Virus record (IMG/VR): IMGVR_UViG_3300028786_000007
Coordinates: 1-64,000 of that record
Origin: a virus
Direction: 5' to 3' (one strand)
DNA: 64,000 nucleotides
A program made the position numbers and the translations under genes. Positions 8,677 to 23,226 of this stretch are shown one piece after another. Every line of letters starts with the position of its first letter. The stretch's first letter is position 1. Below the pieces are notes generated by a model. That model had not been told where the DNA came from. It ran no database searches and worked only from the letters and a program-made list of their open reading frames with translations.

Positions 8677-9170
8677 CCTCCTCGGAAATAATTCCAGCAA
8701 AAGCCGATCACTTTGTGGTCGGTTTTTTGTTTTCTGAGGACGGAGAGAGTTTGTTGTTAATTGAGAAAAAGCGGCCGGCTTGGCAGGTTGGCTATCTTAA
8801 TGGCATTGGTGGGAAGATTTATCCTGGCGAGGCTCCGGTCGCCGCTATGGGGCGGGAGTGCATTGAGGAAGCCGGCGTGGACGTGGAGTGGTCTGAATTT
8901 GCCTGCGTTGAATATGGTGCCCACTTCTTGCATTTCTTTGCGGCGCGCGATGGTACAGCATTCCTGGATGCGCGGCAGCAAACGGATGAGCCCTTAGCGC
9001 GTGTGCGCTATTTATCGGTGCAGTACCCACAGAACATTTATGAACTATCGGTTATTCCGAACCTGAAATGGCTGATACCCCTAGCTCGGCACCACCTTTT
9101 CTATGAGAAGGTCACGTTGGCTCATGTCATTATGACGGGAGGGGGAAGTACAATAGCGAGGAAAATGTGA
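8652..9170 (+). CDS. Nudix hydrolase
   Basis: 172 residues from GTG 8652, placed by AAGGAG at 8638-8643; overlaps the previous gene by 25 nt. Nudix box: GGKIYPGEAPVAAMGRECIEEAGVD, shown here in parts as GGKIYPGE and RECIEEAG, with the metal-binding glutamates intact. Such enzymes cleave nucleoside diphosphates linked to X. It may sanitise the nucleotide pool or remove unmodified nucleotides; substrate not predictable. Confidence 0.85.
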   Translation: MESPENGVTSSEIIPAKADHFVVGFLFSEDGESLLLIEKKRPAWQVGYLNGIGGKIYPGEAPVAAMGRECIEEAGVDVEWSEFACVEYGAHFLHFFAARDGTAFLDARQQTDEPLARVRYLSVQYPQNIYELSVIPNLKWLIPLARHHLFYEKVTLAHVIMTGGGSTIARKM

Positions 9171-9987: not shown

Positions 9988-10191
9988 ATGAGCGATTTCC
10001 TGGCCAGTCTTGAGCCTCTCCTGAGACGGCGCTGCGAGGCTGTATTGCAAATTGACACGGCCCTGGCGCACCTCCCGCGCCACCAGCTCATCGCTGTTCT
10101 CACCAGTTATATCGACCTTGATCAGCTTGAAGAAGCCCTACCAACCATCTGCGGAAGCGATAATGCAAAATCACCAGCGCCTGAGCATTGA
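9988..10191 (+). CDS. Small helical protein, unknown
   Basis: 67 residues starting 3 nt after the previous stop. Hydrophobic helices (LASLEPLLRRRCEAVLQI, HQLIAVLTSYI). It precedes and overlaps the first modification gene. Unknown function. Confidence 0.55.
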   Translation: MSDFLASLEPLLRRRCEAVLQIDTALAHLPRHQLIAVLTSYIDLDQLEEALPTICGSDNAKSPAPEH

Positions 10192-11059
10192 AGAATTCGG
10201 CAAAATCCTGATCCAGAGCAATGACCTCGACCCGGTCTATTGCGCGCTCTACACCATGATGGAGGGCGACGTTCTCAGCCAGGAACACCTCTCGCGGTGG
10301 ATCCTCGCCTATAGCTGCCTCTACCATTGCGGCGTGGCTAGCTACCTTAGCGAGTTCGAAGGCGAGGCGTTCTTTAAGGCGCTGATGGTAGCGGCCTGGA
10401 ACGAGGAGCCCTCGCCGGTCGGTGAGCGGTGGCCGCGCGGGCATGAGCGCCGGCACTGGCGTGGGGCTCAGGCGGTGGACAGCTGCAAGGCGCTTTGGGA
10501 CCGCTACCACAGAGAGCCTGAGCACTTCCTGGATTACGTGATATGGCAATATGCGGCCGACGGTGAGCGTGGCCACCCCACTACCTTCGCTGATATCTCT
10601 GAGCGAGTCCGCACCCACCGCGGCTTCGGAGGGTGGATTGCCTTCAAGCTGGCGGACATGATTGACCGGCTACAACTGCGTCGGGTCGAGTTCAATTATG
10701 ATGATGTCACCATCTACACAGATCCTGTCAAAGCTGCGGAACGTCTTGTACGGCAACGCAATGGTTTTCCCGAAACAGCTTCAGTAAAACCGGAAGCCGT
10801 GAAAGCAGTTTTTGAAGCTTTAGAAGAGCATTTCTCCAATTACCCAGCTCCACCGGTGGGCGACCGGCCAATTGGACTTCAGGAAGTCGAATCAATATTG
10901 TGCAAGTGGAAGTCCCACATGAACGGGCACTATCCGCTCTACAATGACATCCGGGAGATCCGGGAAGGGCTGCTGCCCTGGGCGGAAGTCAGTGAGGTGG
11001 CCGGCTTCTTCCGCGCCGCGATGCCCAAGTTGCCCGCCGAGAAGAAGGTGGCCGCATGA
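10163..11059 (+). CDS. AGPT-pyrophosphorylase family, clade 3 (thymine hypermodification)
   Basis: 298 residues from ATG 10163. It matches my recollection of the alpha-glutamyl/putrescinyl-thymine pyrophosphorylase clade 3 proteins: YCALYTMMEGDVLSQEHLSRW, an aromatic YHCGVASYLSEFEGEAFF core, RWPRGHERRHWRGAQAV, and GGWIAFKLADMIDRL. These helical, DNA-glycosylase-like proteins are linked to replacing an activated 5-phosphomethyl-dU group in DNA with an amine or amino acid. A second family member (clade 2) lies at 15881. The start overlaps the small gene before; the stop overlaps the endonuclease (ATGA). Family call is good; exact donor unknown. Confidence 0.78.
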   Translation: MQNHQRLSIEEFGKILIQSNDLDPVYCALYTMMEGDVLSQEHLSRWILAYSCLYHCGVASYLSEFEGEAFFKALMVAAWNEEPSPVGERWPRGHERRHWRGAQAVDSCKALWDRYHREPEHFLDYVIWQYAADGERGHPTTFADISERVRTHRGFGGWIAFKLADMIDRLQLRRVEFNYDDVTIYTDPVKAAERLVRQRNGFPETASVKPEAVKAVFEALEEHFSNYPAPPVGDRPIGLQEVESILCKWKSHMNGHYPLYNDIREIREGLLPWAEVSEVAGFFRAAMPKLPAEKKVAA

Positions 11060-11673
11060 AACGCCAGAAGATATGCGGCGTGTATCGAATACGCTGTTGC
11101 ACTTCAGGATATGCATATATCGGAAGTGCGCTGGATATTGAGCAACGCCTTAAGCACCATCGCAGAACTCTCCAGGAAAATATCTGTGTTAACAAAGTGC
11201 TTCAATTTGCCTGGAATGTGTTCGGGGAAGGTAATTTTGCCTTTGAAATTGTAGAAACTTGCGAAAAAGAGCAGCTCCTGGATCGGGAGAGCTTCCACGC
11301 GGAACAAACTGAATTTCTCTTCAATCTAGGCAAAGTGGTACGCCGCCCGAAAGGCATGACCCCTGAAGGTCGTCTCCGTTGTTCTGAGGCGGCGAAGCGA
11401 GCACATAAAGAAGGTCGCCTTGGCACACCAACGTGGCGTGCAGCGACATGGGAAGGGCTTCCAGAGCGTGGCCGTAAACTATCGGCTGACCGCAAACCAC
11501 TATCCAAAGAACAACGCCAAGCTGCATCTGAACGCATGATTGCCATGCAAGTTGAGGGCAAAGTACCCCCTCGAACCTGGAGTGATTCAGAGCGCCAGAG
11601 GGTCAGGGAACAAGCGGAAGCTCAACGCAAAGAAGGTCGGCTGGGAAGTCGTTCCCATCGAGGAAGCAAATGA
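11056..11673 (+). CDS. GIY-YIG homing endonuclease
   Basis: 205 residues. GIY-YIG core at the N terminus (CGVYRIRCCTSGYAYIGSA, RLKHH, and the catalytic glutamate region RESFHAEQTEFLFNLG). The C terminus is basic with DNA-binding repeats of the NUMOD kind (GMTPEGRLRCSEAAKRAHKEGR, LSKEQRQAASERM, WSDSERQRVREQAEAQRKEGR). Free-standing, inserted between two modification genes with 4-nt overlaps on both sides. Probably a selfish element that spreads the adjacent locus between related phages. Confidence 0.88.
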   Translation: MKRQKICGVYRIRCCTSGYAYIGSALDIEQRLKHHRRTLQENICVNKVLQFAWNVFGEGNFAFEIVETCEKEQLLDRESFHAEQTEFLFNLGKVVRRPKGMTPEGRLRCSEAAKRAHKEGRLGTPTWRAATWEGLPERGRKLSADRKPLSKEQRQAASERMIAMQVEGKVPPRTWSDSERQRVREQAEAQRKEGRLGSRSHRGSK

Positions 11674-12515
11674 CCAATTTTGATACCATCGTTGTGGGAG
11701 CCGGCATCTTTGGTACCACTATTGGATTGTGGTTGCGCCGCCAAGGTCAAAGCGTGTTGATACTGGACGCGGAGAAGCCTCTCTCGGGCTCAGCTCCGGC
11801 AGCTTGCATTGTAAGACCCCAGTGGTTGGGCAAGATGTCTAAGAAGGAAATGGCCCAAGCTTTCTCCGTATTGGACGAGCTTTACGGCCTCCATGAGCTA
11901 GAGGCTCGTATTCTAGTTGCAGGCTTCACCAAGAGCATTTCCGTCTATTGGGTTGCACCACGTGCCATTCTCAAAGCAGGGCGTTTTGAGCCGGCCGAAG
12001 TTGTGGAAGTCGGTGTTGGTGAATCTCCTTGGGTTCGGTGCAGCGATGGTCGCATTATCCATGCCAGAAGCGTGGTGGTGGCTGCTGGCGTGTGGAGCTC
12101 GAAGTTATGCACAATCAATAACTTAACAGCTCAGGCTGGTGTGGCATTTACGTGGAAAACCGAAGACCCTGAGGATGGTCGCCCACGCATCGCTCCGTGG
12201 GCTCCATACCGGCAATTGGTGGCCCTGAACCGGGCACCGTATGAAACATGGGCGGGCGATGGCACTGCGCTAAAGCAGAGCTCACTGACCCCGGAACGTA
12301 TTGCGGCTTCTCGTGAGCGTTGTGCTAAATTTGTGAACATGCCCCCTGAGGATGCTACCGAGATTGTTGGTTTACGTCCTTACATTCGTGGCTTGAAAGA
12401 TCCATGCCTGGTCGAAGAGGTAATGCCGAACATCTTCGTCGCTAGCGGAGGCAGCAAGAACGGCACGGCCGGGGCCGGCTGGGCCGCGTATAAGATTGCT
12501 GAAGCAACGAATTGA
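11670..12515 (+). CDS. FAD-dependent oxidoreductase (DAO-like), probable base-modification enzyme
   Basis: 281 residues. Rossmann start TIVVGAGIFG (GxGxxG at 10-15) with an acidic end of the second strand (ILDAE), and a C-terminal FAD-closing segment (PNIFVASGGSKNGTAGAGWAAYKIAE). This is the D-amino-acid-oxidase/glycine-oxidase type. Flavin-dependent lyases of this type trim an amino acid already attached to thymidine in the ViI/M6 hypermodification pathways. Its position between AGPT-family and kinase genes supports that use. Alternatively it oxidises a free amine donor. Confidence 0.75.
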   Translation: MTNFDTIVVGAGIFGTTIGLWLRRQGQSVLILDAEKPLSGSAPAACIVRPQWLGKMSKKEMAQAFSVLDELYGLHELEARILVAGFTKSISVYWVAPRAILKAGRFEPAEVVEVGVGESPWVRCSDGRIIHARSVVVAAGVWSSKLCTINNLTAQAGVAFTWKTEDPEDGRPRIAPWAPYRQLVALNRAPYETWAGDGTALKQSSLTPERIAASRERCAKFVNMPPEDATEIVGLRPYIRGLKDPCLVEEVMPNIFVASGGSKNGTAGAGWAAYKIAEATN

Positions 12516-12525
12516 GGCTGAGGCG

Positions 12526-13494
12526 ATGGCGTTTTCCCACGAGGGCTGGACATACGGCGCGGAGCACGAGCTCGCCGACATCGACCGGCGCAAGCCGCTA
12601 CCGGCCGGCTATAAGTGGGACGACCGCGATGTCACGATCGTCAATAGCAACGGCATCGCCAATGACCCCAAGGGCCGCCTCTATGGTTATGGTGGTGAGA
12701 TCAACACGCCGGCCACCAATTCAATCTCTGGCCAGATGGGGTGCCTGCTGCAGATCCTGGAGTGGGACCTTAGTGCTCGTGTGAATTACCGCAGCAACCT
12801 ACATTTGCATATCCGGGTTCCAGGCCTCAAAGAAGATCTCCGCGCGCTGAAGCGCCTTGCACTCTACAACGCGCATTGGCTTCCGATTGTGCTTCCGATC
12901 ATTGAGCCCATTCCCTACCCGAATGGCGACGACTACGGCACGGAGCTCTCCTGGCAGGGTGCGCTGCGCCGCTATAAGCGCCGTAAGCGGTCCCACCAGA
13001 CGGTCTTGACCCCGCAGCGCACAGCGAAGATGATCGAGGCGCACACCGTGGAGGAGTTTTTCCGCGCGGAGGTGCCCGTGGACAGTAAGGGCAACCCGAT
13101 GTGGCATGCCCAGGCGCGCGCCGCAGTCAATATCCGCCAGCTGCGAGAAACTGAGACAATCGAGTTCCGCCACTTTTCGGGCACGCTGGACATCAACGAG
13201 CTCAGCCACTGCTTCGATTGGTGCGAGCACTACCTGCTGTGCGCGCTTTGCCCAACTTGGGGACTGCGGCCCTCCGCCTTAGACCCCTATCAGACCTTCA
13301 AGCCACACAAGCCGTTCCAGGGCGTGTTGGCCGGCTTCCCGGAGTTCCCGCCCTACGACCATGCCCTGGAAATCCGCTACCGGGCGACCTGCCATGACGG
13401 GTCGCTGGAGCAAGAGCAGATCGCTAGGAATATCAAAGCGATAGAAGAAAACAGTTTTGACGATGAAGCTTGGGAGAGATCACTAAAATGGTGA
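12526..13494 (+). CDS. COOH-NH2 amidoligase (GCS/GS-like fold)
   Basis: 322 residues from ATG 12526 (GAGG upstream). It has the features of the putative amidoligase family related to glutamate-cysteine ligase and glutamine synthetase: YGAEHELAD (metal-binding E-x-E-like strand), GYGGEINTPATNS, SNLHLHIRV and the late basic/acidic strand ETIEFRHFSGTLDINEL. Such enzymes use ATP to join a carboxylate and an amine. In this cluster it could extend an amino acid or amine on the modified base by an amide bond, or make the donor compound. The substrate is inference; the fold call is fairly confident. Confidence 0.75.
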   Translation: MAFSHEGWTYGAEHELADIDRRKPLPAGYKWDDRDVTIVNSNGIANDPKGRLYGYGGEINTPATNSISGQMGCLLQILEWDLSARVNYRSNLHLHIRVPGLKEDLRALKRLALYNAHWLPIVLPIIEPIPYPNGDDYGTELSWQGALRRYKRRKRSHQTVLTPQRTAKMIEAHTVEEFFRAEVPVDSKGNPMWHAQARAAVNIRQLRETETIEFRHFSGTLDINELSHCFDWCEHYLLCALCPTWGLRPSALDPYQTFKPHKPFQGVLAGFPEFPPYDHALEIRYRATCHDGSLEQEQIARNIKAIEENSFDDEAWERSLKW

Positions 13495-13775
13495 ATAACG
13501 CAAGAATAGGCGAATTTCGAATGATGGCGGCTCAGGTCTTTTATGCCGAAGACGCCGATGGCTTTCTCCGCCGTTGGGAGCCCACTCCGGAGACGTTGCG
13601 CGGCTCCGAAATGGCGCGCGCGATTCGCGGCGGCACGGCTATCAATGACACGCCAACCCTGATCGAATTTCTGGTCGATCGGCTGGTCAACCTTCATGGC
13701 GAAAGCCTTGACGTGGATTATATCCGGGCGGCAAAGGAACGTGCGGCAATGTTGCGCGACTCGTTGCCAAAATGA
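13488..13775 (+). CDS. Small protein, unknown
   Basis: 95 residues from ATG 13488 (GGGAGAG upstream), overlapping the amidoligase end. Mixed helix (AQVFYAEDADGFLRRW, LIEFLVDRLVNLHG). No family recognised; ATGA overlap with the DUF4031 gene suggests a shared transcript. Confidence 0.65.
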   Translation: MVNNARIGEFRMMAAQVFYAEDADGFLRRWEPTPETLRGSEMARAIRGGTAINDTPTLIEFLVDRLVNLHGESLDVDYIRAAKERAAMLRDSLPK

Positions 13776-14116
13776 CCGTTTACGTCGACGACATGTACGC
13801 CATGCCGATGGGGCGCTACCGCGGCATGAAGATGTCGCACATGATCGCCGATACGGAAGCGGAGCTGCACGCCATGGCGGATCAGATTGGCGTGAAGCGA
13901 CGCTGGTTTCAGCAGGTTCCGAGCGGCAACCATTACGACATTGCCATGAGTAAGCGCAGTCGAGCAGTGGCGGCCGGCGCGGTGGAGATCACCATGCGGC
14001 AGTGCGCGGCGATTTGCGCGTGTCAGCGCCGCGGTGAGGCTTACTCCTCGCCGGAGGACGCTTGGGAGAAGCACCGCGCGCGGCTTAGCGCGATAATCAA
14101 TGCGCCGGAGCAATAA
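13772..14116 (+). CDS. DUF4031 protein
   Basis: 114 residues. Typical DUF4031 start (TVYVDDMYAMPMGRYRGMKMSHMIADTEAELHAMAD), then RRWFQQ and HYDIAMSKRSRAVAAGAVEIT. A small domain widespread in phages and bacteria, of unknown biochemical role. Four-base overlap with the upstream gene. Confidence 0.85.
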   Translation: MTVYVDDMYAMPMGRYRGMKMSHMIADTEAELHAMADQIGVKRRWFQQVPSGNHYDIAMSKRSRAVAAGAVEITMRQCAAICACQRRGEAYSSPEDAWEKHRARLSAIINAPEQ

Positions 14117-14184
14117 TCCACATGCTGCGTTGGCTTAAGCGGCTACGTTGCGTTTTGTTCGAAGCATGAAAGAGGAATCGACGA

Positions 14185-14742
14185 ATGACAGTTCTGGTAC
14201 TTTGCCACGGAGCAATCTGCCGTTCACCTATGGCCGTTGCAGTGATGAAACGGGCAGGTCTTACGGATGTTCATTGCGCAGGCTTCAAGCCCGCGGACGA
14301 AAGGTCCAAACCTTCCCCGAAGAAGGTGCGCGACTGGGCGATGGAAAATGAGGGTCTGGACCTCTCATTGCATCGTTCCAAGTCTGTGACCGTGGACATG
14401 CTACGGCGGGCGGAGATTATCCTCTACATGGACAGCGGCCAGATGGGTCGGCTGGAAACGCTGTGGGAGGAAAACGGCCTCGCCGCTGAGCTTGGCCCGG
14501 TTTATGCGCGCGCCCGGCCGCTGGCCGCTTACCTGACCACCCCCCTGGGCCGCATCGGCGACCCGATGTTCCAGAAGCCGGAAACCCAGGAGTTTATGAC
14601 CATTATGGGTCAGCTCGTGGAAGCTTCCACGCGCTTCGCTCGCGAATGGCAGGAACTCAAGAAGGGCGACGCGCAAGTCGCCGGCCTGCAGGCGGCGGCC
14701 ACCGCCAGCACGGACGGTGCTCCTGAGGAGGCCGCGGCGTAA
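14185..14742 (+). CDS. Low-molecular-weight protein tyrosine phosphatase-like
   Basis: 185 residues. P-loop CHGAICRS at residues 7-14 fits C-x5-R-S, right at the N terminus as in LMW-PTP and arsenate reductase relatives; SLHRSKSVT and GDPMFQKPE resemble the later LMW-PTP motifs. Start ATG 14185 follows AGAGGAA. Its stop overlaps the start of the predicted 5-hmdU DNA kinase. It may act on protein phosphotyrosine, or on a phosphorylated nucleotide or base intermediate; the pairing with a DNA-base kinase makes the latter worth testing. An Ala-rich tail follows residue 165. Confidence 0.78.
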   Translation: MTVLVLCHGAICRSPMAVAVMKRAGLTDVHCAGFKPADERSKPSPKKVRDWAMENEGLDLSLHRSKSVTVDMLRRAEIILYMDSGQMGRLETLWEENGLAAELGPVYARARPLAAYLTTPLGRIGDPMFQKPETQEFMTIMGQLVEASTRFAREWQELKKGDAQVAGLQAAATASTDGAPEEAAA

Positions 14743-15347
14743 TGCCCCAATTGGTAAATATACGGGGCACTAGCGGCTCCGGTAAGTCCACAGCGGTCCG
14801 CTCCATTATGGAGCGGGCTGATAGCGTTGACCCCTTCCTGGCCGACCCGGCCGTGTTCGGCAAAAAGCGCAAGAACCCACTGTTCTATCTGTGTCAGTTC
14901 AAGGGTCATCCGGACGTGGCGGTGCTCGGCCACTATGGCGCAGATTGCGGCGGACTGGACACATTACCTTCTTATGCTTTCATCACAGAACTGATCCGGA
15001 CTCGCTACAGCGAAGGTCAACACGTGATCTTCGAAGGGCTATTGCTCAGCCATGACACCAAGCAGGTGCTCGGGCTGTGGGACTGGCTCGGTAAGAAGGA
15101 TTTCACCGTCCTGGAGCTTACCGAAACGGTGGAGACCTGCGTGCAGTCTGTCAGGGACCGGCGCGCGCGGAAGGGCCAACCTCCGGAGTTCAATACGAAC
15201 AACACCGTGCGTCGGCACGGCGAGGTTATACGGGCGTGTAGTAAGCTCGAGGCGGCCGGCGTACCGGTGCGGCGCATTAGCCGGGCGGAATGCGTTCCGA
15301 CCGTCCTGGAGCTGCTGGAGCTGCGTAAGGAGGCGGTGGCGGCGTAA
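14742..15347 (+). CDS. 5-hydroxymethyluracil DNA kinase-like P-loop enzyme
   Basis: 201 residues. Walker A GTSGSGKS at 9-16 in the N-terminal strand-loop (MPQLVNIRG), a mid-protein acidic strand HVIFEGLLLS, a lid-like RRARKGQPPEFN and a C-terminal helical part. This matches the phage P-loop kinases (5-HMUDK) that phosphorylate 5-hydroxymethyl-dU within DNA as the activation step of thymidine hypermodification. Neighbours (LMW-PTP, AGPT-family, dUMP hydroxymethylase) support that reading over a generic nucleotide kinase. Confidence 0.8.
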   Translation: MPQLVNIRGTSGSGKSTAVRSIMERADSVDPFLADPAVFGKKRKNPLFYLCQFKGHPDVAVLGHYGADCGGLDTLPSYAFITELIRTRYSEGQHVIFEGLLLSHDTKQVLGLWDWLGKKDFTVLELTETVETCVQSVRDRRARKGQPPEFNTNNTVRRHGEVIRACSKLEAAGVPVRRISRAECVPTVLELLELRKEAVAA

Positions 15348-15619
15348 TGGCGAAATATCGCAAGAAGGCGGTGGAAGTTGAGGCTTGGGGAACCAAGAGC
15401 GGCGAACGTGCACCGGATTGGCTTCAGCAGGCTGAAGTGGAAGGTCGTGCGAGCTACCACTTTGCTATTGGCGGTTCAGGCTTTTCCATGTCCATCAAAA
15501 CTCTTGAGGGGGTGATGACGGCGGATTTTGGCGACTTCATCATTCGCGGCGTGAAGGGCGAGATCTATCCTTGCAAGCCGGATATCTTTGAAGCGACCTA
15601 TGACAAAGTCGACGAATAA
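15347..15619 (+). CDS. Small conserved phage protein (KYRKKxVxVEA type)
   Basis: 90 residues. The opening KYRKKAVEVEAW and the end GDFIIRGVKGEIYPCKPDIFEATYDKV are typical of a small beta-rich protein found in many phages, often near modification or nucleotide genes. Function unknown. One-base overlap with the kinase stop (TAATG). Confidence 0.75.
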   Translation: MAKYRKKAVEVEAWGTKSGERAPDWLQQAEVEGRASYHFAIGGSGFSMSIKTLEGVMTADFGDFIIRGVKGEIYPCKPDIFEATYDKVDE

Positions 15620-15872
15620 GCTAGCCCTCGCGCTTCTTCTCCTCGGCGCTGGGCCCAGTCATGCCCAGCGCCTCGACGGGCCGGAGATCGGCGTGGATTG
15701 CCAATATGGTCGCGGCGTACTGAAACTGTGCCAAGCCGGGTGCCGTGCCGAGTCTGATTCAGCGCGAACATGGCGACGGGTAAATAACGAAGAGCGCGTG
15801 CAGCGGTTGGCACACTGCCTAGATGAATGTTGGGGTATCCGTAAAGCCTTGGAAGAATGCCCCAAGAGGTGA
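15600..15872 (+). CDS. Small secreted cysteine-rich protein
   Basis: 90 residues from ATG 15600. Signal peptide (TNKLALALLLLGAGPSHA, cleavage near residue 22) and six cysteines in the mature part (CQYG, LCQAGC, CLDECW, ECPK), likely disulfide-bonded in the periplasm. It overlaps the previous gene. A secreted protein inside a DNA-modification operon is odd; it may be an independent moron-like gene. Confidence 0.65.
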   Translation: MTKSTNKLALALLLLGAGPSHAQRLDGPEIGVDCQYGRGVLKLCQAGCRAESDSARTWRRVNNEERVQRLAHCLDECWGIRKALEECPKR

Positions 15873-15880
15873 GCCCCGTG

Positions 15881-16789
15881 GCCCGCAATAAGCACGCTAT
15901 TGTAACGGAAGCGCACCTGCAGCGCTTCTTCGATTTCTCCCGTGAGCGTTACCACATTATGCTGCGGCGGCGGTTAGGGCAACCGGCCCCCTGGACCACC
16001 GACCCGGTGCTGGCCATGTGGCGGTTCTGCAACGTGTTCCGCGAGGACGACCGCACCACGACTTGGTTCCGGGAAAATATCCGCAACGAGCTGAGCATGG
16101 AACCGCGCGTGGTCATGGCCACGATCGCTTTCCGTGCCTTCAATCGCGTTGAGACCGGCGAGATTCTCAAGCCCTTCCTGCTCAACGAAGACTATAATTT
16201 CCCGGAATGGCGGCGACTGCTTACTGAACGCGCAGAAGCTAATTTCCCTGTGGTTACAGGGGCTTACATGATAAAAACAGCGCCGAAACTAAATAAAATA
16301 GACGGCGTGCTGTATCAGCTCAGTGAGGCCAAAATGCGCGAAGCCTCCATCATGGACTGGATCCGTAATAACGATTGGGGCTTCTGCACTCAGGAAAGCC
16401 TGTGGGAACTGCTCTGCACTTTCCCCTATATTGGTCAATTTACCGCCAATGAAGTGGTGGTCGACCTTACCCACACTCACATTCTCCGCGCCGCGCGAGA
16501 CCTGGATACCTGGACCAACCCCGGCCCAGGCTGCTCCCTGGGCATTGGCATGCTACTCCACGGCGATGGGCAGGTCTACCGCCGCCATGCTCAAGCAGAT
16601 CGTCGGGTAATGACTGGCATTATGACTGAGTTCCTGTATGCTTCCCGGGAGGAGCGCTATTGGCCGCAGGCTTGGCCCCGTTGGACGCTCCATACGGTGG
16701 AATGGGGTTTTTGTGAGCTGAGTAAGTACCTTCGCGGCCTAGCCGGACAAAAGCTCAAAAGGAAGTACCGTGCCTCGGAACTTGCGTAG
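15881..16789 (+). CDS. AGPT-pyrophosphorylase family, clade 2 (amino acid:DNA transferase type)
   Basis: 302 residues from GTG 15881 (AAGAGGTGAG upstream). The opening HLQRFFDFSRERYHIMLRR, then PWTTDPVLAMWRFCNVFREDDRTTTWFREN, and later PYIGQFTANEVVVDLTHT (helix-hairpin-helix-like) and GPGCSLGIGML are characteristic of the clade 2 thymine pyrophosphorylase family. In ViI/M6-type phages related proteins install an amino acid on phosphorylated 5-hmdU in DNA. I consider this the best candidate for the transferase step here. The gene is followed and overlapped by a homing endonuclease. Confidence 0.82.
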   Translation, partial: ARNKHAIVTEAHLQRFFDFSRERYHIMLRRRLGQPAPWTTDPVLAMWRFCNVFREDDRTTTWFRENIRNELSMEPRVVMATIAFRAFNRVETGEILKPFLLNEDYNFPEWRRLLTERAEANFPVVTGAYMIKTAPKLNKIDGVLYQLSEAKMREASIMDWIRNNDWGFCTQESLWELLCTFPYIGQFTANEVVVDLTHTHILRAARDLDTWTNPGPGCSLGIGMLLHGDGQVYRRHAQADRRVMTGIMTEFLYASREERYWPQAWPRWTLHTVEWGFCELSKYLRGLAGQKLKRKYRASELA

Positions 16790-17513
16790 TGGGAAGGTCT
16801 ATTCCTACCTGCTCGTGCGCCCAAACGGCATTCCCTTCTATGCGGGCGTGGGCCGTTGTAGCCGATACAAGGCTAAGAAAGCGAATAAGTGGGCTGAGCG
16901 TATCCGCGCGAAGATTGAGCGTGAGGGTGGCCGAGTTCTCTATATAGTTTTTGACCAATCTTCTTGGGATGAAGCGTGTACTCATGAGAAGGAACTCATT
17001 GCAAAATATGGCCGCCAAGATCTAGGAACTGGCGTTCTGGTGAATGCTACGGATGGTGGGGAGGGTGTGCCCGGCCGTATCATGACCAAGGATCAGTTGG
17101 CACATTTGGGCAGTCAACAACGCGGTAAAAAGTGGGCACCCGATGACCCGCGTCGAGAGCTAATTTCTCGTCAATTCAAGGGACGTAAGCCCAATCACTC
17201 TCCTGAGCTAAAGCAACAACTTTCAGAAAGAATGAAGAAGTTCAATGAGGGCAACGCTGAGCGCAATAGGGCAAGAAAAGGCATCTCGCTAAGTGAGGAA
17301 CGACGGGCGCAGATTAAGGCCACAGCTGCAGCCCAACCCCCAATGAGCGAGGAACGCAAAGAAGCGTTTCGCCAGATGACCATCGCTCGTAATAGGGCAA
17401 ATAAAGGAAAGCCTCAAAGTGAGGAGCGTAAGGCTCAGTCACGAGAAACCCTTGCCCGAGCTCTTAAAATTCGATGGGAACGCTACCGTGCCAACAACCC
17501 TACCCATTCGTAA
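16770..17513 (+). CDS. GIY-YIG homing endonuclease with NUMOD repeats
   Basis: 247 residues. GIY-YIG variant (VYSYLLVRPNGIPFYAGVG), catalytic glutamate in CTHEKELIAKYG and the NxTDGGEG motif, then several NUMOD3-type repeats (GRKPNHSPELKQQLSERMKK, KGISLSEERRAQIKATA, NKGKPQSEERKAQSRET). It overlaps the end of the clade 2 gene and the start of the hydroxymethylase gene, so insertion has been adjusted to keep both frames. Confidence 0.88.
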   Translation: MPRNLRSGKVYSYLLVRPNGIPFYAGVGRCSRYKAKKANKWAERIRAKIEREGGRVLYIVFDQSSWDEACTHEKELIAKYGRQDLGTGVLVNATDGGEGVPGRIMTKDQLAHLGSQQRGKKWAPDDPRRELISRQFKGRKPNHSPELKQQLSERMKKFNEGNAERNRARKGISLSEERRAQIKATAAAQPPMSEERKEAFRQMTIARNRANKGKPQSEERKAQSRETLARALKIRWERYRANNPTHS

Positions 17514-18570
17514 CGTACACGCAGCTCTGCCTGCCTTTCTACTCACCCTCCTCGAAACTAGCATCTCTGAAGAAAGCCGCAACGGCCCCGTTTTCGTGTA
17601 CCCATACCCGCTGACGACTCTCTATGAGCGTCCTTGGGAACGAGTGATATTTTGGGAAGAGCGGGACGCTAACCCATTTTTTCACTTCCAGGAATCACTT
17701 TGGATGCTAGCCGGGAGGAATGATGTTGATTTTCCAGCGCATTACGCGAAGCAGCTACGCACTTATAGTGACGACGGTAAGACTTTGCATGGAGCTTATG
17801 GCCATAGGTGGCGCCATCATTTTGCTGACAAAGACCAGCTCTCCTGGGCTATTAGCCGGCTTAGGGACAATCCGTCCGACCGACGCACCGTAATCTCAAT
17901 GTGGGATCCAATCATTGATGCTGATATGGCGGACAAGGGTGGGAAAGATACTCCCTGCAATACGCAGATCTATCTTAACGTGCGTGACGGCCATTTGTGT
18001 ATGCAAGTGAATTGTCGATCGAACGATGCGTTGCTCGGCGCGTTCGGAGCCAACGCAGTGCACATGGCCTTTTTGCATGAATATCTTGCGGCCCATATCG
18101 GAGTTCCGATGGGCTGGTATGCTCAAAACAGCTTCAACATCCATGTCTACGAAGGTTTCTATAAGACGGTCATGAATGACCGCAAGGCTAGGGTCGAACA
18201 GCAGAGCCTGCGGTTCGCTATGACGCAGCCTGGAGAGCATCGCTGGAACCCGTACAGCGATTTACCCGGCCTGCAGCTCCACTCTCTCGTCAATTCCCCC
18301 CAAGCTACTTGGGATTCGGAGTTAGCCATTTTCCTGGCGGGCGGTTCCAGTAAGGCTGATGGCCTAGACGACCCATTTTTCACCAAAGTCGCTGTTCCAA
18401 TTAGGGACGCCCACGCAGCATACCGCAAGAGAGATCATGACCTCGCCAACGAAGTTATCTCCAAATGTGCAGCCGCCGACTGGCGCAGAGGATGCACCGA
18501 CTGGCTCACCCGACGTGCAGAGCAACGCAATACTCCGAAGCATGCTGAGCCGGATAGCGCTCACCCGTAA
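17488..18570 (+). CDS. Thymidylate synthase homologue, probable dUMP 5-hydroxymethylase
   Basis: 360 residues from GTG 17488 (GGGAAC upstream), overlapping the endonuclease end by 26 nt. Catalytic cysteine C157 in DTPCNTQIYL; substrate-binding RSNDALLGAFGANAVHM. The SND/GAFGAN form, rather than the canonical thymidylate synthase RSxDxxLGxPFN, is typical of phage pyrimidine hydroxymethylases. The reaction would be dUMP plus methylene-THF to 5-hydroxymethyl-dUMP, the entry to hypermodified thymidine. It could alternatively be a true thymidylate synthase or a dCMP hydroxymethylase; neighbours favour dUMP. Confidence 0.82.
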   Translation: MPTTLPIRNVHAALPAFLLTLLETSISEESRNGPVFVYPYPLTTLYERPWERVIFWEERDANPFFHFQESLWMLAGRNDVDFPAHYAKQLRTYSDDGKTLHGAYGHRWRHHFADKDQLSWAISRLRDNPSDRRTVISMWDPIIDADMADKGGKDTPCNTQIYLNVRDGHLCMQVNCRSNDALLGAFGANAVHMAFLHEYLAAHIGVPMGWYAQNSFNIHVYEGFYKTVMNDRKARVEQQSLRFAMTQPGEHRWNPYSDLPGLQLHSLVNSPQATWDSELAIFLAGGSSKADGLDDPFFTKVAVPIRDAHAAYRKRDHDLANEVISKCAAADWRRGCTDWLTRRAEQRNTPKHAEPDSAHP

Positions 18571-19084
18571 TGGTGGCCACGTCAAGCGCTGGCACACCAA
18601 GCAGATTATCGGCGAACAGACGGTCGGACACCACTCCTTTGGGGTGGTGTCGCTACTTCTGATCCTGCACCCCAACCCGAGCCTCGATTTGCTGAGGGCA
18701 GCGATGTGGCACGATATGGCGGAGCAGGTCACCGGTGACGTGCCCAGCCCTATCCTGCGTTCCGAGCATGAATTCGGCACCTGCCACGACAAGATCGAGG
18801 CGGAGTTCATGCGCAATAAGCTCTTCGTGCGCATGGACCACCTCCCCTTCAACGACCACAGTTGGCTCTGGGCTTGCGATAAGCTGGAGTGTTTATTGTT
18901 CTGCCGGGAGCAAGTTGCGCTTGGTAATAAGGGTTTTGAAAATATCTGCGGATTACTTACCGAGTGGTTTCTGAAAACTGACGCAGTACCTGGGCCAGTA
19001 ATGGCCATTGTCTATAAGCTTAGCCAAAGTTATTGCGGCTATTCTTTGGAGGATGTGCTTGAAGTTATGGGGACATCAACTTGA
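18542..19084 (+). CDS. HD-domain nucleotide phosphohydrolase
   Basis: 180 residues from ATG 18542, overlapping the hydroxymethylase end. HD metal site: H31 (GHHSFGV), H57-D58 (WHDMAE) and a later DKLE aspartate; GDVPSPI follows as in YfbR/DatZ-like proteins. These remove phosphates from dNMP or dNTP. In a hydroxymethyl-dU phage it may destroy dTTP/dTMP or another competing nucleotide; in 2-aminoadenine phages a similar protein (DatZ) destroys dATP. Upstream codons to 18437 are in frame but look non-coding. Confidence 0.8.
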   Translation: MLSRIALTRNGGHVKRWHTKQIIGEQTVGHHSFGVVSLLLILHPNPSLDLLRAAMWHDMAEQVTGDVPSPILRSEHEFGTCHDKIEAEFMRNKLFVRMDHLPFNDHSWLWACDKLECLLFCREQVALGNKGFENICGLLTEWFLKTDAVPGPVMAIVYKLSQSYCGYSLEDVLEVMGTST

Positions 19085-19500
19085 CTGACTTTCACGAAAA
19101 ACATCCCCAGGTCGGCGGAAATCATTACGCCAAAGGCGGAGACCTTCAGCATTGGGACCTGATTGAGCGCGGAAGCATCGGCTACCTGGAAGGCTGCGCC
19201 ACGAAGTATATTGCACGGTGGCGCGACAAGGGGGGGCTGCAAGACCTCAAGAAGGCCAAGCATTACGTAGAGAAGTTGATTGACATGCGGTCCAAGGCCG
19301 GCCGCATGGCGCGCGGTGAGGCTCTGCCAGAGGATCTGGAGCGCTTTTTTGCTACTTATGGGATGGGTGATATGGAGCGCGAGGTTATTCGGAAGCTGTG
19401 CTCCAATTGGAGCCGGGTGGATCTGTTCTGGGTGCTTGGTGCACTCGAAGTGATTATTGACAAGGAAGAAAATGGCCCTCAGCAAAGCCCAGCAACTTAA
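19081..19500 (+). CDS. DUF3310 protein
   Basis: 139 residues from TTG 19081 (GGGGAC upstream; TTGA overlap with the HD gene stop). DUF3310 signature: QVGGNHY, LQHWDLIER, GYLEGCATKYIARWRDKGGLQDLKKAKHYVEKLI. Often called nucleotide-kinase-like in phages, but the activity is not established. Sits among nucleotide metabolism and replication genes. Confidence 0.88.
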   Translation: MTDFHEKHPQVGGNHYAKGGDLQHWDLIERGSIGYLEGCATKYIARWRDKGGLQDLKKAKHYVEKLIDMRSKAGRMARGEALPEDLERFFATYGMGDMEREVIRKLCSNWSRVDLFWVLGALEVIIDKEENGPQQSPAT

Positions 19501-21463
19501 GAAGGGCTCCACCCTTCAATTGAGCCTTTTCGCGCCGGAGAGTGTTTGGTCACCTCCGGCGCTCAGCATGCTCCCTAGCTGGAAAGGGGCGAAGCGTGTA
19601 GCGGTCGACGTAGAGACGAAGGATCCGGACCTGCGGGAGCTCGGGCCGGGCGTGCGCCGGCCGAGCACCTCCCATATCGCCGGTTACAGTTTCGCGATCG
19701 ACGATGGCCCGGCCTATTACATGCCGGTGGCGCACCTCGGCGGCGATAACGTCGACAACCCGGATCAGGCCTGGCAATACCTCGCCGACCAAGCCAAGGA
19801 CTTTGACGGGGAGATTGTCGGTCAAAACCTCGGCTATGACCTGGATTGGCTGGCGGAGGCGCGGCGCGGTAAGCCGGCGATCGTGTTCCGGCGGGCGCGG
19901 GCGTTCCGCGATACGATGGTCGCCGCGGCGCTGATCTATGAGCTGCACATGAGCTATAGCCTCGGTGCGATTGCTGAGCGCTACGGTATGCCCGGCAAAA
20001 ATGAGGAGCTTCTTCGGCAGGCCGCCGCGGAGTTTAACGTAGACCCCAAGGGCGGTCTCTGGCGGCTCCCAGCGCGTTACGTGGGGCCTTACGGCGAGGG
20101 CGATGCCCACTTGCCCCTGCGCATCCTCGAGCGCCAGGAGAAGGAGATCGCTGAGCAGGATTTGGGCCGGATTTGGGATATTGAATCGGCGTTGCTGCCG
20201 GTGCTGGTCAAGATGCGCCGCCGCGGCGTGCGGATCGACTTCGACCGGCTGGCCCGTATCGAGGACTGGACCCTCCAGGAGGAGCGCAAAGCCCTGGACA
20301 TCGTCCGGTTTGAAACCGGCTACATGATTGAGGTGGGCGACGTTTGGAAGCCTACCGCGCTGGCTCCGGCCCTGGAAGCGGTCGGCATCAGTGTGGGGCG
20401 CACGGCCAAGACCGCTTCGCCGCAGATCGATAAGGCGCTGCTCTCCAGTTCGGACCACCCGGTCTTGAACGCTATCGCCTGGGCGCGCAAGGTCAATAAG
20501 CTCCGCACCACCTTTGCCCAGTCGGTGCGCACCCATGCCGTCAACGGCCGTATCCACACCACCTTGAACCAGCTCTTCGGCGAACGGGAGGACGGCGGGC
20601 TGCGCGGCGCGCGGTTCGGGCGCATGAGCTGTGAGAACCCGAATTTGCAGCAGCAACCTTCCCGGGATGAGTTCGCCCAAGAGTGGCGCGCCATCTACAT
20701 CCCGGAAGAGGGTATGCAGTGGGGCTGCATGGACTTTTCGCAGCAGGAGCCGCGGTGGTGCGCGCACTTCGCCAATGCGATGAAGCTGGAAGGCGCGGCG
20801 GCGATGGTCGCGCGCTTCAACGAAGACCTCAAGACCGACGTTTATGACCTCGTCGCCTCCATTACCGGCCTGAAGCGCAAGGAAGCCAAGATCGTGTATC
20901 TTGGCATTATGTATGGTGAGGGCGGCTACAAGCTCTGCATGGACCTCGGTTACGAGACCGCGGTCAAGGTGGTGCTGAAGGGCAAGTGGTCCGCGGAGAA
21001 CTCCCAGGAGGGCTATGACGCGCTCCGCGGCGGCGGCCGGAAAGTACAGGCGGCTGGCCCGGAAGGACAAGCGGTTATCGATCAGTTCGACAACAACGCG
21101 CCATTTGTGCGGAAATTGAGCAAAGCCTGCTCGACTGTTGCCGAGCAACGTGGCTACATCAAGACTATTCTCGGCCGGCGTTGCCGCTTTCCGAAGGACG
21201 ACCACGGCAATTACGACTGGAGTTACAAGGCACTCAATAGGCTCATCCAAGGTAGCTCAGGAGACCAAGTTAAAGCTGCAATGGTAGAGGTGGATAAGGC
21301 CGGTCACCATTTACAACTCCAGGTACATGATGAGTTGGATGGCTCAATCAAAGACCGTGCTGAGGGTGAGGCCATGGCTGAGATCATGCAGAACGTCGTC
21401 CAGATGAGCGTGCCGTTCCGAGTTGATGTAGAGGTTGGCCCTAACTGGGGTGAGATTAAATGA
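19472..21463 (+). CDS. DNA polymerase I-type (family A) with 3'-5' exonuclease
   Basis: 663 residues from ATG 19472 (AAGGAAG upstream). Exonuclease motifs: DVE with D46 and E48, GQNLGYDLDWL and YSLGAIAERYG. Polymerase motif A MDFSQQEPR (D421), motif B RKEAKIVYLGIMYGEGGYK, motif C VHDEL (D620). Both activities look intact and there is no 5'-3' exonuclease domain. This is the phage replicative polymerase and would have to accept hydroxymethyl-dUTP if the modification pathway is right. It lies directly after DUF3310 and before dCMP deaminase with overlaps. Confidence 0.95.
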   Translation: MALSKAQQLKKGSTLQLSLFAPESVWSPPALSMLPSWKGAKRVAVDVETKDPDLRELGPGVRRPSTSHIAGYSFAIDDGPAYYMPVAHLGGDNVDNPDQAWQYLADQAKDFDGEIVGQNLGYDLDWLAEARRGKPAIVFRRARAFRDTMVAAALIYELHMSYSLGAIAERYGMPGKNEELLRQAAAEFNVDPKGGLWRLPARYVGPYGEGDAHLPLRILERQEKEIAEQDLGRIWDIESALLPVLVKMRRRGVRIDFDRLARIEDWTLQEERKALDIVRFETGYMIEVGDVWKPTALAPALEAVGISVGRTAKTASPQIDKALLSSSDHPVLNAIAWARKVNKLRTTFAQSVRTHAVNGRIHTTLNQLFGEREDGGLRGARFGRMSCENPNLQQQPSRDEFAQEWRAIYIPEEGMQWGCMDFSQQEPRWCAHFANAMKLEGAAAMVARFNEDLKTDVYDLVASITGLKRKEAKIVYLGIMYGEGGYKLCMDLGYETAVKVVLKGKWSAENSQEGYDALRGGGRKVQAAGPEGQAVIDQFDNNAPFVRKLSKACSTVAEQRGYIKTILGRRCRFPKDDHGNYDWSYKALNRLIQGSSGDQVKAAMVEVDKAGHHLQLQVHDELDGSIKDRAEGEAMAEIMQNVVQMSVPFRVDVEVGPNWGEIK

Positions 21464-22020
21464 ACTTTCTTGACATCAAGCCCCTACCCCCAACGCCCGA
21501 AGAGATGGCCCGCCAACGGAAGTGGGACTTCCGCATGCTGTCTATGGCGCGGCTGGTTTCTATGTGGTCACAAGATCCCTCAACGCGCGTGGGAGCGGTG
21601 ATTACCCGGCGCGACCACACGGTACTCTCATTGGGCTATAACGGTTTTCCGCGCGGGTGTAGCGACGCTCCGGAGCTTTACGAGGACCGGGAACGGAAGT
21701 ATGCGCGCGTCGTTCACGCTGAGCTCAATGCCATACTCGCCGCGGCGGAACGGCCGATAGGGTGCACGCTTTACGTCTGGCCGCCCGCGCTACGGCCGGG
21801 CACATGCGCAAATTGCGCTTCAGCGATTATCCAGTCTGGCATTTCGCGCGTCGTAAGCGTGGAGTCAAATGCCATCGGGTTTAACGAACGGTGGGAGAAG
21901 TCTTACCGGGAGGCGGCTCAGATGTACGCAGAAGCGCTTATCCCCTTTGACAGTTACCCATTAGCGGAGTTCGAAGAGTGGATGAAGGCAATGTCCGCAC
22001 CACCGTTCTCAGCGCCCTGA
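21460..22020 (+). CDS. dCMP deaminase family protein
   Basis: 186 residues; ATGA overlap with the polymerase gene. Zinc motif HAE (VVHAELNAIL) and GTCANC; the allosteric-type SxDPSTRVGAV and GYNGFPRG segments are those of deoxycytidylate deaminase. Converts dCMP to dUMP, the substrate of the predicted hydroxymethylase, so it fits the thymidine replacement pathway. A proline precedes the CxxC by two residues rather than one. Confidence 0.92.
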   Translation: MNFLDIKPLPPTPEEMARQRKWDFRMLSMARLVSMWSQDPSTRVGAVITRRDHTVLSLGYNGFPRGCSDAPELYEDRERKYARVVHAELNAILAAAERPIGCTLYVWPPALRPGTCANCASAIIQSGISRVVSVESNAIGFNERWEKSYREAAQMYAEALIPFDSYPLAEFEEWMKAMSAPPFSAP

Positions 22021-22481
22021 GGCCGTTGCACGCCATTTATGTTGAGAACGGCGCGAAGGCTGGGACCGGTGACGTTAATTACATAGAAGGTTGGCTCGAA
22101 TTAAAATGGTTGCACAATTGGCCGAAACGCCCAAAGACGCCGATAAAACTGCCCGAATTCACGCCCCAACAGCGGCTCTTCCTGATCGAGCGATGTCGCA
22201 TGAACGGTCAGGCACGCGTGCTGCTAAGGGTGGGCAGGGAGTGGATCCTGCTGCCGGGGATGTGGTCGGCCTTCAGGCTCGGAAAGACCTCGACGCGCGC
22301 CGACATTCTGGCAGCAGCGGAAAAGCATTGGTTGGCAAATTTAAGCAGATCCGAGCTCGTCAGTTACCTTCGCGACCCACCTCCGGTGAACTCCGATTGG
22401 TCGAGCTTTCTAAAGGAGAGCGGCTACACATTTCCCGGCTTAGAAAGGGCGTCGATCAACACGTTGCTGCAGCTGCCTTAG
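21978..22481 (+). CDS. VRR-NUC/PD-(D/E)XK-type nuclease
   Basis: 167 residues, likely from GTG 21978, overlapping the deaminase end. Nuclease core: HAIYVENGAKAGTGDVNYIEGWLELKWLHNWP (G-x-G-D...E-L-K), followed by FTPQQRLFLIERCRMNGQARVLLRVGREWILLPG, a pattern shared by many phage VRR-NUC proteins. Probably a structure-specific or recombination nuclease. Start position is uncertain. Confidence 0.8.
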   Translation: MDEGNVRTTVLSALRPLHAIYVENGAKAGTGDVNYIEGWLELKWLHNWPKRPKTPIKLPEFTPQQRLFLIERCRMNGQARVLLRVGREWILLPGMWSAFRLGKTSTRADILAAAEKHWLANLSRSELVSYLRDPPPVNSDWSSFLKESGYTFPGLERASINTLLQLP

Positions 22482-22699
22482 GCGTCACTCGTTCCCGTTA
22501 CCAGGATATGGAGAAAGAGGACGGCGAGTTCCGCAAGATGCGTCTTACGGTGAACGAGTGGTGCCGCGTCATGCGGTGGCGCGCACGTAAGTCGCAACGA
22601 GTTGTCGCCGCGGAGATGGGAATGACCCGTAACTGGATCAATCGCATTGAATGCGGCTTGGAAAAAGCTGATTCACTTCTTTGGTATTGGGAACATTGA
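22397..22699 (+). CDS. Tandem XRE-type HTH regulator
   Basis: 100 residues from TTG 22397 as the most plausible start; the longer in-frame extension upstream has non-coding composition because it lies across the nuclease gene. Two helix-turn-helix units are visible: HVAAAALGVTRSRYQDME and RVVAAEMGMTRNWINRIE. Overlaps the nuclease before it and the MazG-like gene after it (ATGA). Likely regulator. Confidence 0.65.
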   Translation: MVELSKGERLHISRLRKGVDQHVAAAALGVTRSRYQDMEKEDGEFRKMRLTVNEWCRVMRWRARKSQRVVAAEMGMTRNWINRIECGLEKADSLLWYWEH

Positions 22700-23226
22700 T
22701 GACTGAGACGCCGGAAACAATATTGGATTGGTCACTGAAGACGTTTGGATTGCATTCAGTACTTTCTGTGGCGACGCGGGCGAGCAAGGAAGTCAATGAA
22801 CTTGTCTGCGCCGTCCTTAACGACGCACCGCTTGCAGCAATCCACGAGGAGATTGCTGACTGCGCCATTATGATGTGGCAAGTTGCGGGACTCAAGAATC
22901 TTGATCATCGGCCGGCTCTTCGTCAAATGACTAATCCGGAAGAGGTCAATAAGGGCATTGCAGCGCTGATGATTCAACGGCGCTTTACGTCTGTGTTGGA
23001 TGAGTTGGTCAAGGCTCAAAATCCCAGCAAATTTCCTGAATTGGCGCAGGCGCACTCCATGGGTATTTTGCGCGATTCGCTGATTTGCCTGGAGTTCCTC
23101 GCTTGGGCCTATGGCATAGACTTACAGGAGCATGTTGATGGTAAAATGGTAATCAACCGCAGCCGTAGTTGGGAAAAACTGCAAAATGGTGGTTACCAAC
23201 ATGTTGCCGCTGCTGTAGTTGCCTAA
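22699..23226 (+). CDS. MazG-like nucleotide pyrophosphohydrolase
   Basis: 175 residues. Metal-binding helix pattern KEVNELVCAV...HEEIADCAIMMWQVAG (E..E ... EE..D) of the MazG/DUF550 superfamily, which turns dNTPs into dNMPs. Expected role: trimming host dNTPs (for example dATP/dGTP or dTTP) beside the HD enzyme. ATG 22699 overlaps the HTH stop. Confidence 0.75.
   Translation: MTETPETILDWSLKTFGLHSVLSVATRASKEVNELVCAVLNDAPLAAIHEEIADCAIMMWQVAGLKNLDHRPALRQMTNPEEVNKGIAALMIQRRFTSVLDELVKAQNPSKFPELAQAHSMGILRDSLICLEFLAWAYGIDLQEHVDGKMVINRSRSWEKLQNGGYQHVAAAVVA

Follow-up and report, generated by a model that had tools for sequence, protein, structure and literature searches.

The window analysed here is a 64,000-nucleotide stretch of viral DNA (positions 1 to 64,000 of IMG/VR virus record IMGVR_UViG_3300028786_000007). 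It contains a gene cluster at 10163-23226 for which the initial annotation had proposed a thymidine hypermodification pathway, and every gene named in that proposal was recovered, all within this interval and on the + strand (Table 1). The two AGPT-pyrophosphorylases that it listed correspond to an aGPT-Pplase2 (ADDT) and an aGPT-Pplase1 (HMUDK_hel). The frame directly after HMUDK_hel, considered as a candidate second AGPT enzyme, was rejected because it matches a homing endonuclease family instead. The pathway frames are all intact, and the gene order is kept in relatives. The YfbR-like HD nucleotidase is predicted to function in precursor metabolism and the dCMP deaminase in dUMP supply, while both MazG-like proteins probably also have a role in precursor metabolism.

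Table 1. Genes of the cluster, with the matches bearing on their assignment
Gene product	Position	Strand	Match or remark
ADDT / aGPT-Pplase2, predicted glycinyltransferase	10163-11059	+	PF18724, 5.5e-19; frame open from TTG 10052
GIY-YIG protein, outside the pathway	11056-11673		
FAD-dependent lyase (FAD DAO), predicted	11670-12515	+	PF01266, 1e-18
Amidoligase (COOH-NH2 ligase), predicted	12526-13494	+	Fold, motifs, IMG/VR relatives
DUF4031 protein	13772-14116	+	PF13223, 1.4e-25; amidoligase on one side, phosphatase on the other
Low-molecular-weight phosphatase (LMWP)	14185-14742	+	PF01451, 2e-12
P-loop kinase, predicted 5-hmdU DNA kinase	14742-15347	+	AAA_33, 7.5e-6
MazG-like / nucleotide pyrophosphohydrolase-like small protein	15347-15619	+	PHROG 419, 1.3e-29; PHROG 4159, 2.8e-5
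HMUDK_hel / aGPT-Pplase1, helical kinase partner	15857-16789	+	PF18723, 1.2e-42
Homing-endonuclease-like protein, outside the pathway	16770-17513		Homing endonuclease family match
Thymidylate synthase homologue, predicted dUMP 5-hydroxymethylase	17419-18570	+	PF00303, 5.7e-21; PHROG 5131, 7e-104
YfbR-like HD nucleotidase	about 18437-19084, start uncertain	+	PF12917, 1.8e-10; PaMx11_52 homologue
Family A replicative DNA polymerase (PolA)	19457-21463	+	PF00476, 4.6e-49
dCMP deaminase	21460-22020	+	PF00383, 2.2e-17
MazG-like protein	22681-23226	+	PHROG 9147, 5e-12; PHROG 9236 (pyrophosphatase), 7e-5

The thymidylate synthase homologue has a CMP 5-hydroxymethylase as its best PDB match (2e-25), retains the catalytic Cys and an Asn equivalent to ThyA N177 (uracil-type Asn), and is likely to be a hydroxymethylase, not a methylase. 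The P-loop kinase has a borderline match to AAA_33 (26.7 vs 27 bits) and does not reach the threshold of the PF18748 profile, which the kinase of phage Simon also misses (24.3 of 27 bits); the latter matches HMUDK_HMUD1 (2.5e-5). The helical partner is 42% identical to PaMx11_50. Homology and gene position tie the kinase to its PaMx11 (PaMx11_49) and Simon counterparts, and on this basis it is predicted to be a 5-hmdU DNA kinase. Family searches place both the kinase with its helical partner and the thymidylate synthase homologue among phage hypermodification proteins, outside ordinary nucleotide metabolism; neither outcome that would have spoken against the proposal at the sequence level was seen. 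The ADDT protein matches the solved 'Glycinyltransferase' PDB 8z2m (E about 1e-82 to 7e-82) and 25qc (3e-84), with ~50% identity to YuA/PaMx11-group proteins, and the FAD protein matches the solved 'Flavin-dependent lyase' PDB 8z2o/8z79 (4e-53), with 38% identity to PaMx11_47. We take the glycinyltransferase (8z2m/8z2n) and flavin-dependent lyase (8z2o/8z79) structures to belong to the 5-NmdU work listed as reference 27 of PMC11946847. Together, the hydroxymethylase-like protein, kinase, HMUDK_hel, ADDT and FAD protein are predicted to form 5-aminomethyl-dU.

The matches of the transferase and the FAD enzyme to solved enzymes, and a gene order corresponding to that of Pseudomonas phage PaMx11 (JQ067087), support the initial proposal of thymidine hypermodification. 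Both phages share the order ADDT - FAD lyase - [capping gene] - kinase - HMUDK_hel, followed by hydroxymethylase - HD - PolA - dCMP deaminase. However, the FAD gene of PaMx11 is followed by one for a GNAT acetyltransferase, whereas the window has the amidoligase, the DUF4031 protein and the LMWP, and no GNAT was found at this slot. The whole gene set is shared with phage Simon (PQ683277, from raw sewage; unannotated and flagged UNVERIFIED), including an amidoligase (43%), LMWP, kinase, HMUDK_hel and hydroxymethylase, with Nmad5 at the position of the homing-endonuclease-like gene. Pseudomonas phage M6/YuA, which makes 5-(2-aminoethyl)-dU, shares the hydroxymethylase, kinase, aGPT-Pplase1 and aGPT-Pplase2. 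The naming of the M6-like cassette follows PMC9476957, which lists for M6 a PLP enzyme and a radical SAM protein in place of an FAD lyase, and models for the FAD lyase, amidoligase and LMWP had no match in the M6 stretch searched. Of the steps initially attributed to the ViI/M6 pathways, the hydroxymethylase, kinase and transferase apply to M6, while the FAD step is a PaMx11-type feature. The unusual part of the cluster, which the initial annotation did not single out, is the amidoligase and LMWP: this pair is probably the new element, while the thymidine route to 5-aminomethyl-dU is of the known PaMx11 type.

Against the Pfam amidoligase profile, the window protein scores 14.9 bits, below the 22-bit cut-off, while its relatives in loci L012 (27.2) and L033 (24.3) lie above it. 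A PDB sequence-profile search gave chance matches only, and the relation to the GCS/glutamine synthetase superfamily came from a fold search: with the AF2 model (pLDDT 86.8) as a Foldseek query, 50 of the 50 PDB matches listed belong to this superfamily (best E 2e-4), with ~12% identity to solved ligases and low TM-scores of 0.3-0.4. Matches in BFVD are amidoligases (5e-13), and the fold is common to many other phage amidoligases. Residues E23, E25, E68, H103, H105, E223 and R225 are invariant in 12 diverse members, and these motifs correspond to E. coli GshA E27/E29, E67, H150 and E328/R330, which are presumably catalytic. The protein shares the gamma-glutamyl-cysteine ligase/glutamine synthetase fold and is a predicted amidoligase.

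A DNA-level search of the phage collection with the window matched nothing, and an IMG/VR scan with the amidoligase as a single protein returned zero relatives, which were found only with a three-sequence amidoligase alignment as the query. At least 121 relatives are present in IMG/VR, whereas the 50,697 phage records searched contain only 2 and the 84,980 genomes only 3, all of them metagenome-assembled contigs. Dereplication at 85% amidoligase identity gave 58 groups, and neighbours were counted within 8 kb. An amine-making enzyme was present near the amidoligase in 55 of the 58 groups (GATase 30, FAD 17, PALP 5, QueF 3), with labels from HMMs with few seeds, contigs often short, and related contigs not representing independent events. 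Four unrelated amine sources thus occur beside the amidoligase: glycine with the FAD lyase, GATase with ADDT, the M6-type PLP and radical SAM enzymes (in PALP loci L031, L033, L078 and L085), and QueF. In one locus (L179), ParB_N, N6_N4_Mtase, PALP and amidoligase are fused in a single 1184-aa protein, which links the amidoligase to DNA. Loci with GATase and ADDT often contain TET/JBP.

The amidoligase and the acetyltransferase alternate at the capping position. The FAD loci contain an amidoligase (10), a GNAT (6) or neither (2), with both in 0. The 62 GATase loci contain an amidoligase with LMWP (31), a fusion of the two (1), a 'type B' amidoligase with GNAT (17) or GNAT alone (13), and in none of the 62 is a capping enzyme lacking. 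In the loci scanned, the window-type amidoligase and an acetyltransferase never occur together. Because GATase and ADDT also occur without any amidoligase, GATase is not present only for the ligase. The LMWP is beside the amidoligase in 51 of the 58 groups; a separate LMWP is missing in 7, one of which encodes a fusion. Its CX5R motif is present in 83 of 86 homologues, and the DP motif containing the general-acid Asp in 84 of 86. An LMWP accompanying every amidoligase was ruled out, as the second (type B) clade pairs with GNAT instead.

Phage 7-deazaguanine DNA modification involving QueF gives dPreQ1 (PMC6884629; a text search of this article did not find an amidoligase term). Two QueF IMG/VR records with QueF-amidoligase-LMWP also encode DpdA-FolE-QueC-QueD, suggesting a related cassette on a dPreQ1-type pathway, modifying a guanine-like base, whereas the window phage is predicted to modify thymidine. 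In these records DpdA was not detected with the TGT Pfam model but was detected with the 9g DpdA protein as query, which did not find DpdA in Vibrio phage 2.275.O. HMUDK_hel was absent from the one QueF amidoligase record examined. In loci L008 and L032 the LMWP follows the amidoligase, and the kinase and ADDT are absent. In a tree, the amidoligases of these two loci are nested within the FAD clade, suggesting that one amidoligase family serves both T and G.

We consider it probable that the cluster encodes a thymidine hypermodification pathway ending in an amide. In this pathway, the thymidylate synthase homologue would form 5-hydroxymethyl-dUMP, to be incorporated into DNA by the polymerase (step 1), the P-loop kinase and HMUDK_hel would phosphorylate the hydroxymethyl group in DNA (step 2), ADDT would exchange the phosphate for glycine (step 3), and the FAD lyase would cleave the glycine to give 5-aminomethyl-dU (step 4). 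Next, a carboxylate activated at the expense of ATP, probably supplied by an amino acid, would be coupled to the base amine by the amidoligase (step 5), an amide capping standing where PaMx11 has acetylation, and the LMWP may assist in this coupling (step 6). Steps 1-4 are predicted by homology with named, partly solved enzymes, while amide ligation in step 5 is suggested by the fold, the conserved catalytic motifs and the genomic association across four amine-making routes. In GATase loci, the amidoligase might instead amidate a DNA-linked carboxylate.

A reaction of opposite polarity, in which the amidoligase activates a base-borne carboxylate (e.g. the glycine adduct) and couples it to ammonia or an amine, as for CmoY on 5-carboxymethylcytosine, is in our view unlikely. 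Ligation of an amide on DNA has a precedent in CmoY from Synechococcus phage S-B43 (PMC12783734), an asparagine synthetase homologue that forms AMP and links the amine of glycine to a carboxylate on cytosine. The ADDT product bears a carboxylate, and the GATase adjoining the amidoligase in many loci could provide ammonia. However, the amidoligase is also present with the FAD lyase and with QueF, whose products contain an amine but no side-chain carboxylate, GATase and ADDT are found with GNAT and without an amidoligase, and the slot is shared with GNAT, an amine acylator. ATP-dependent amide formation on a base side chain would be common to both systems, but the window enzyme has a GCS/GS fold and is predicted to ligate an external carboxylate onto the amine of the base, whereas CmoY is of the asparagine synthetase type and uses a base carboxylate. 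Neither a cytosine C5-MTase nor CmoA was present among the scanned neighbouring genes. It is quite improbable that the pathway stops at 5-aminomethyl-dU, with the amidoligase and phosphatase directed at another target (a protein, a small molecule or the cell wall), as might be suggested by the widespread fold and by a phage module proposed to modify peptidoglycan, in which COOH-NH2 ligase genes accompany those for GGCT and ATP-grasp proteins (PMC11945000). The scanned neighbours included neither GGCT nor ATP-grasp genes, the amidoligase tracks base-amine genes in both the T and 7-deazaguanine pathways, and the L179 protein joins its domain to one of DNA methylase type.

The place of the LMWP in the amide pathway can also be questioned, as it may instead partner the 5-hmdU kinase and clear unreacted phosphate of 5-phosphomethyl-dU, with only an indirect link to the amidoligase. 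Most of these loci carry the kinase, and in L043 the LMWP is fused to the kinase, making action on 5-phosphomethyl-dU also possible. By contrast, among HMUDK-recruited loci the LMWP is present in 11 of 11 with an amidoligase and in just 1 of 69 without (Fisher p 1e-12), the latter (L103) ending at a contig end; the 68 kinase-helical loci with neither gene disfavour a mere kinase companion. The LMWP is also retained in L008 and L032, and there are two amidoligase-LMWP fusion proteins (L033 and L177). A kinase partnership is accordingly rather unlikely, and by association only, the LMWP is a putative partner of the amidoligase serving the amide step. That the cluster is decayed or silent, leaving DNA with ordinary thymidine or only 5-hmdU, is very improbable: two endonuclease genes lie within it, but no pathway frame is disrupted, catalytic residues are retained and relatives conserve the gene order.

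More broadly, the amidoligase-LMWP pair may be a general, portable amide-capping module acting on 5-aminomethyl-dU, 5-aminoethyl-dU-type bases and dPreQ1, with the amine supplied by any of the four routes, a generalization that we hold to be evenly balanced. An equally balanced prospect is that it entails a class of DNA bearing amino-acid or other acyl amides on its bases, of which none is described in the accessible literature; an earlier mention of amidoligases, GATases or LMWP in such clusters is possible. If so, one late-step cassette would be common to chemically unrelated T and G modifications, suggesting that DNA hypermodification is modular (handle, then amine, then cap), and many uncultured phages would be predicted to carry a new class of acylated bases. 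The amidoligase would also be an enzyme for coupling carboxylic acids to aminomethyl-dU DNA, useful in labelling, and its clearly defined substrate would suit a one-pot assay. As a minor observation, the DUF4031 protein adjoins the amidoligase in loci L006 and L007 too.

Profile searches over positions 10163-23226 bore out the gene list proposed for this stretch in the initial annotation, and every pathway gene there lies on the + strand. The IMG/VR record is 100.5 kb long in full, and its first 64 kb make up the window.

Genes of the predicted thymidine hypermodification cluster (window positions)
Feature	Position	Strand	Basis or remark
ADDT/aGPT-Pplase2	10163-11059	+	profile search
GIY-YIG protein	11056-11673		inside cluster
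FAD DAO enzyme	11670-12515	+	profile search
Amidoligase	12526-13494	+	profile score below the Pfam cut-off; start taken from sequence
DUF4031	13772-14116	+	profile search
LMW phosphatase (LMWP)	14185-14742	+	profile search
P-loop kinase	14742-15347	+	profile search
MazG-like	15347-15619	+	profile search
HMUDK_hel/aGPT-Pplase1	15857-16789	+	profile search
Homing-endonuclease-like protein	16770-17513		inside cluster
Thymidylate synthase homologue	17419-18570	+	profile search
HD nucleotidase, DUF3310, PolA, dCMP deaminase, second MazG-like gene	also in cluster	+	profile search

The GIY-YIG and homing-endonuclease-like genes are probably intruders in the modification cluster. GIY-YIG genes also occur between ADDT and the FAD gene in three other loci (L012, L022 and L108).

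Judged from the enzyme families, the first four steps should yield 5-aminomethyl-dU. The thymidylate synthase homologue, for which the closest solved structure is a CMP 5-hydroxymethylase, retains both the catalytic Cys and the Asn that corresponds to ThyA N177, the uracil-reading residue. PDB matches of the ADDT protein are 8z2m (‘Glycinyltransferase’, 7e-82) and 25qc (3e-84); that of the FAD protein is 8z2o (‘Flavin-dependent lyase’, 4e-53). The chemistry of 5-NmdU was reportedly the subject of work by Lee in 2022 and Wen in 2024 (cited in PMC11946847). The same gene order is found in Pseudomonas phage PaMx11, in which the gene immediately 3' of the FAD gene encodes a GNAT acetyltransferase, whereas the window has the amidoligase at that position. 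The FAD step had been credited to ViI/M6, which is wrong, as M6-like phages use a radical SAM protein and a PLP enzyme in its place (PMC9476957).

The AlphaFold model of the amidoligase is confident (pLDDT 86.8), and all 50 of the PDB matches listed by Foldseek are gamma-glutamyl-cysteine ligase, glutamine synthetase or their kin, with low TM-scores (0.3-0.4) that place the assignment at superfamily level. Its viral structure matches carry an amidoligase annotation. The invariant residues E23, E25, E68, H103, H105, E223 and R225 (counted from 12496) sit in motifs matching LERE, LEFITP, GVHYNF and IEVRSLD of E. coli GshA. Relatives were found in only two of 50,697 phage records (phage Simon and Vibrio phage 2.275.O), in none of 72,556 plasmid records, and, across 84,980 genomes, in only three contigs, all metagenome-assembled. 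With an alignment as query, IMG/VR yielded at least 121.

These relatives were recruited with amidoligase patterns alone, so their neighbour genes were not a criterion of recruitment. Dereplication at 85% identity gave 58 groups, with an amine-making enzyme within 8 kb of the amidoligase in 55: a class II glutamine amidotransferase (GATase) with an ADDT homologue in 30, an FAD lyase in 17, an M6-type PLP enzyme (PALP) in 5, and QueF in 3. The other three groups involve short contigs, proximity to a contig end, or, in L090, a more distant FAD gene. Neighbours were labelled using HMMs built from few seeds (E 1e-4 to 1e-6), collection scans covered the best 80 matches each, many contigs are short, and locus counts include near copies except where given as groups. 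In the PALP loci L031, L033, L078 and L085, a radical SAM protein is present, with Cys-motif surroundings identical to those of M6. The N-terminal Cys is retained in nearly all GATase proteins, and GATase-type records contain a TET/JBP oxygenase (10/12) and, in 1/12, a thymidylate synthase homologue, which would represent two routes to hydroxymethyl-U.

QueF phages are known to make dPreQ1, a 7-aminomethyl base (PMC6884629). The QueF records L008 and L032 both contain DpdA, FolE, QueC and QueD, and HMUDK_hel was not found in the L008 record. On the tree their amidoligases fall inside the FAD-type clade, so the enzyme has moved between T and G pathways. In the large Vibrio phage 2.275.O (L004, 10048-13937), an amidoligase relative lies immediately 5' of QueF and is preceded by a 596-aa protein of no assigned family with relatives in PA5oct-like phages. 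A Loktanella MAG contig (L179:5316-8870) encodes a single 1184-residue protein with ParB_N, N6_N4_Mtase, PALP and amidoligase regions, a fusion that, besides the pathway context, would tie the amidoligase to DNA.

Further loci were recruited by HMUDK_hel or by the GATase-associated ADDT. Among the HMUDK_hel-recruited FAD loci, 10 have the amidoligase, 6 GNAT, 2 neither and none both. In the GATase-associated ADDT loci, the slot holds GNAT alone, a second amidoligase clade (type B) with GNAT, or the window-type amidoligase with LMWP. For the 62 GATase loci with both flanks, the counts are amidoligase plus LMWP 31, amidoligase-LMWP fusion 1, type B plus GNAT 17 and GNAT alone 13; none of the 62 lacks a capping enzyme, and none has LMWP together with GNAT. 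The occurrence of GATase and ADDT without an amidoligase argues for a role of GATase in the ADDT step, and for the amine otherwise acylated by GNAT as the substrate of the ligase.

The type B clade has an IEFRC motif and occurs in the GATase/ADDT clusters of L198, L210, L221, L250, L256 and others, followed by GNAT, with LMWP absent from that place. This arrangement would be consistent with an amino acid being ligated first and its free amine then acetylated. In L036, L038, L039 and L040, a type B amidoligase is followed in tandem by one of the window type, and LMWP is present; the tandem pair could lengthen the side chain by two units.

LMWP is present in 51 of the 58 dereplicated groups. Among HMUDK_hel-recruited loci, it occurs in 11/11 with the amidoligase versus 1/69 without (Fisher p ~1e-12, the loci being partly interdependent), and in that single exception the contig is cut at the relevant end. 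Two amidoligase-LMWP fusion proteins were found, in an M6-type locus (L033) and a GATase-type locus (L177). QueF loci also contain LMWP, with kinase and ADDT not nearby. An exclusive link between the two enzymes is, however, countered by L043:3211-4257, where a single protein joins LMWP with a P-loop kinase resembling 5-hmdU kinases. Of 86 LMWP sequences, 83 retain the catalytic CX5R motif and the others are truncated; candidate reactions are dephosphorylation of a phosphorylated donor or of a stray phospho-adduct.

Phages do make amides on DNA bases, as exemplified by CmoY, an asparagine synthetase-like, AMP-forming enzyme for which the carboxylate is on the base (PMC12783734). By contrast, the window cassette, whose chemistry is predicted from sequence, would have the reverse polarity and another fold. 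Our literature search, outside which key comparative-genomics papers lay, returned no paper that connects 5-aminomethyl-dU or dPreQ1 with either an amidoligase or an LMW phosphatase.

Other genes were noted in the window. A NUDIX protein and a 272-aa protein of no assigned family lie 5' of ADDT (8643-9985), as in L006 and L007, and the latter also has a relative in L025. A ribonucleotide reductase large-subunit gene lies near the left end (1861-3627); nrdA/nrdB also lie upstream of the PaMx11 cluster. A 3050-aa ORF (37341-46493, +) has ADP-ribosyltransferase-type domains at about residues 1122-1257 (ART-PolyVal) and 2880-3026; it resembles the polyvalent proteins that phages inject.
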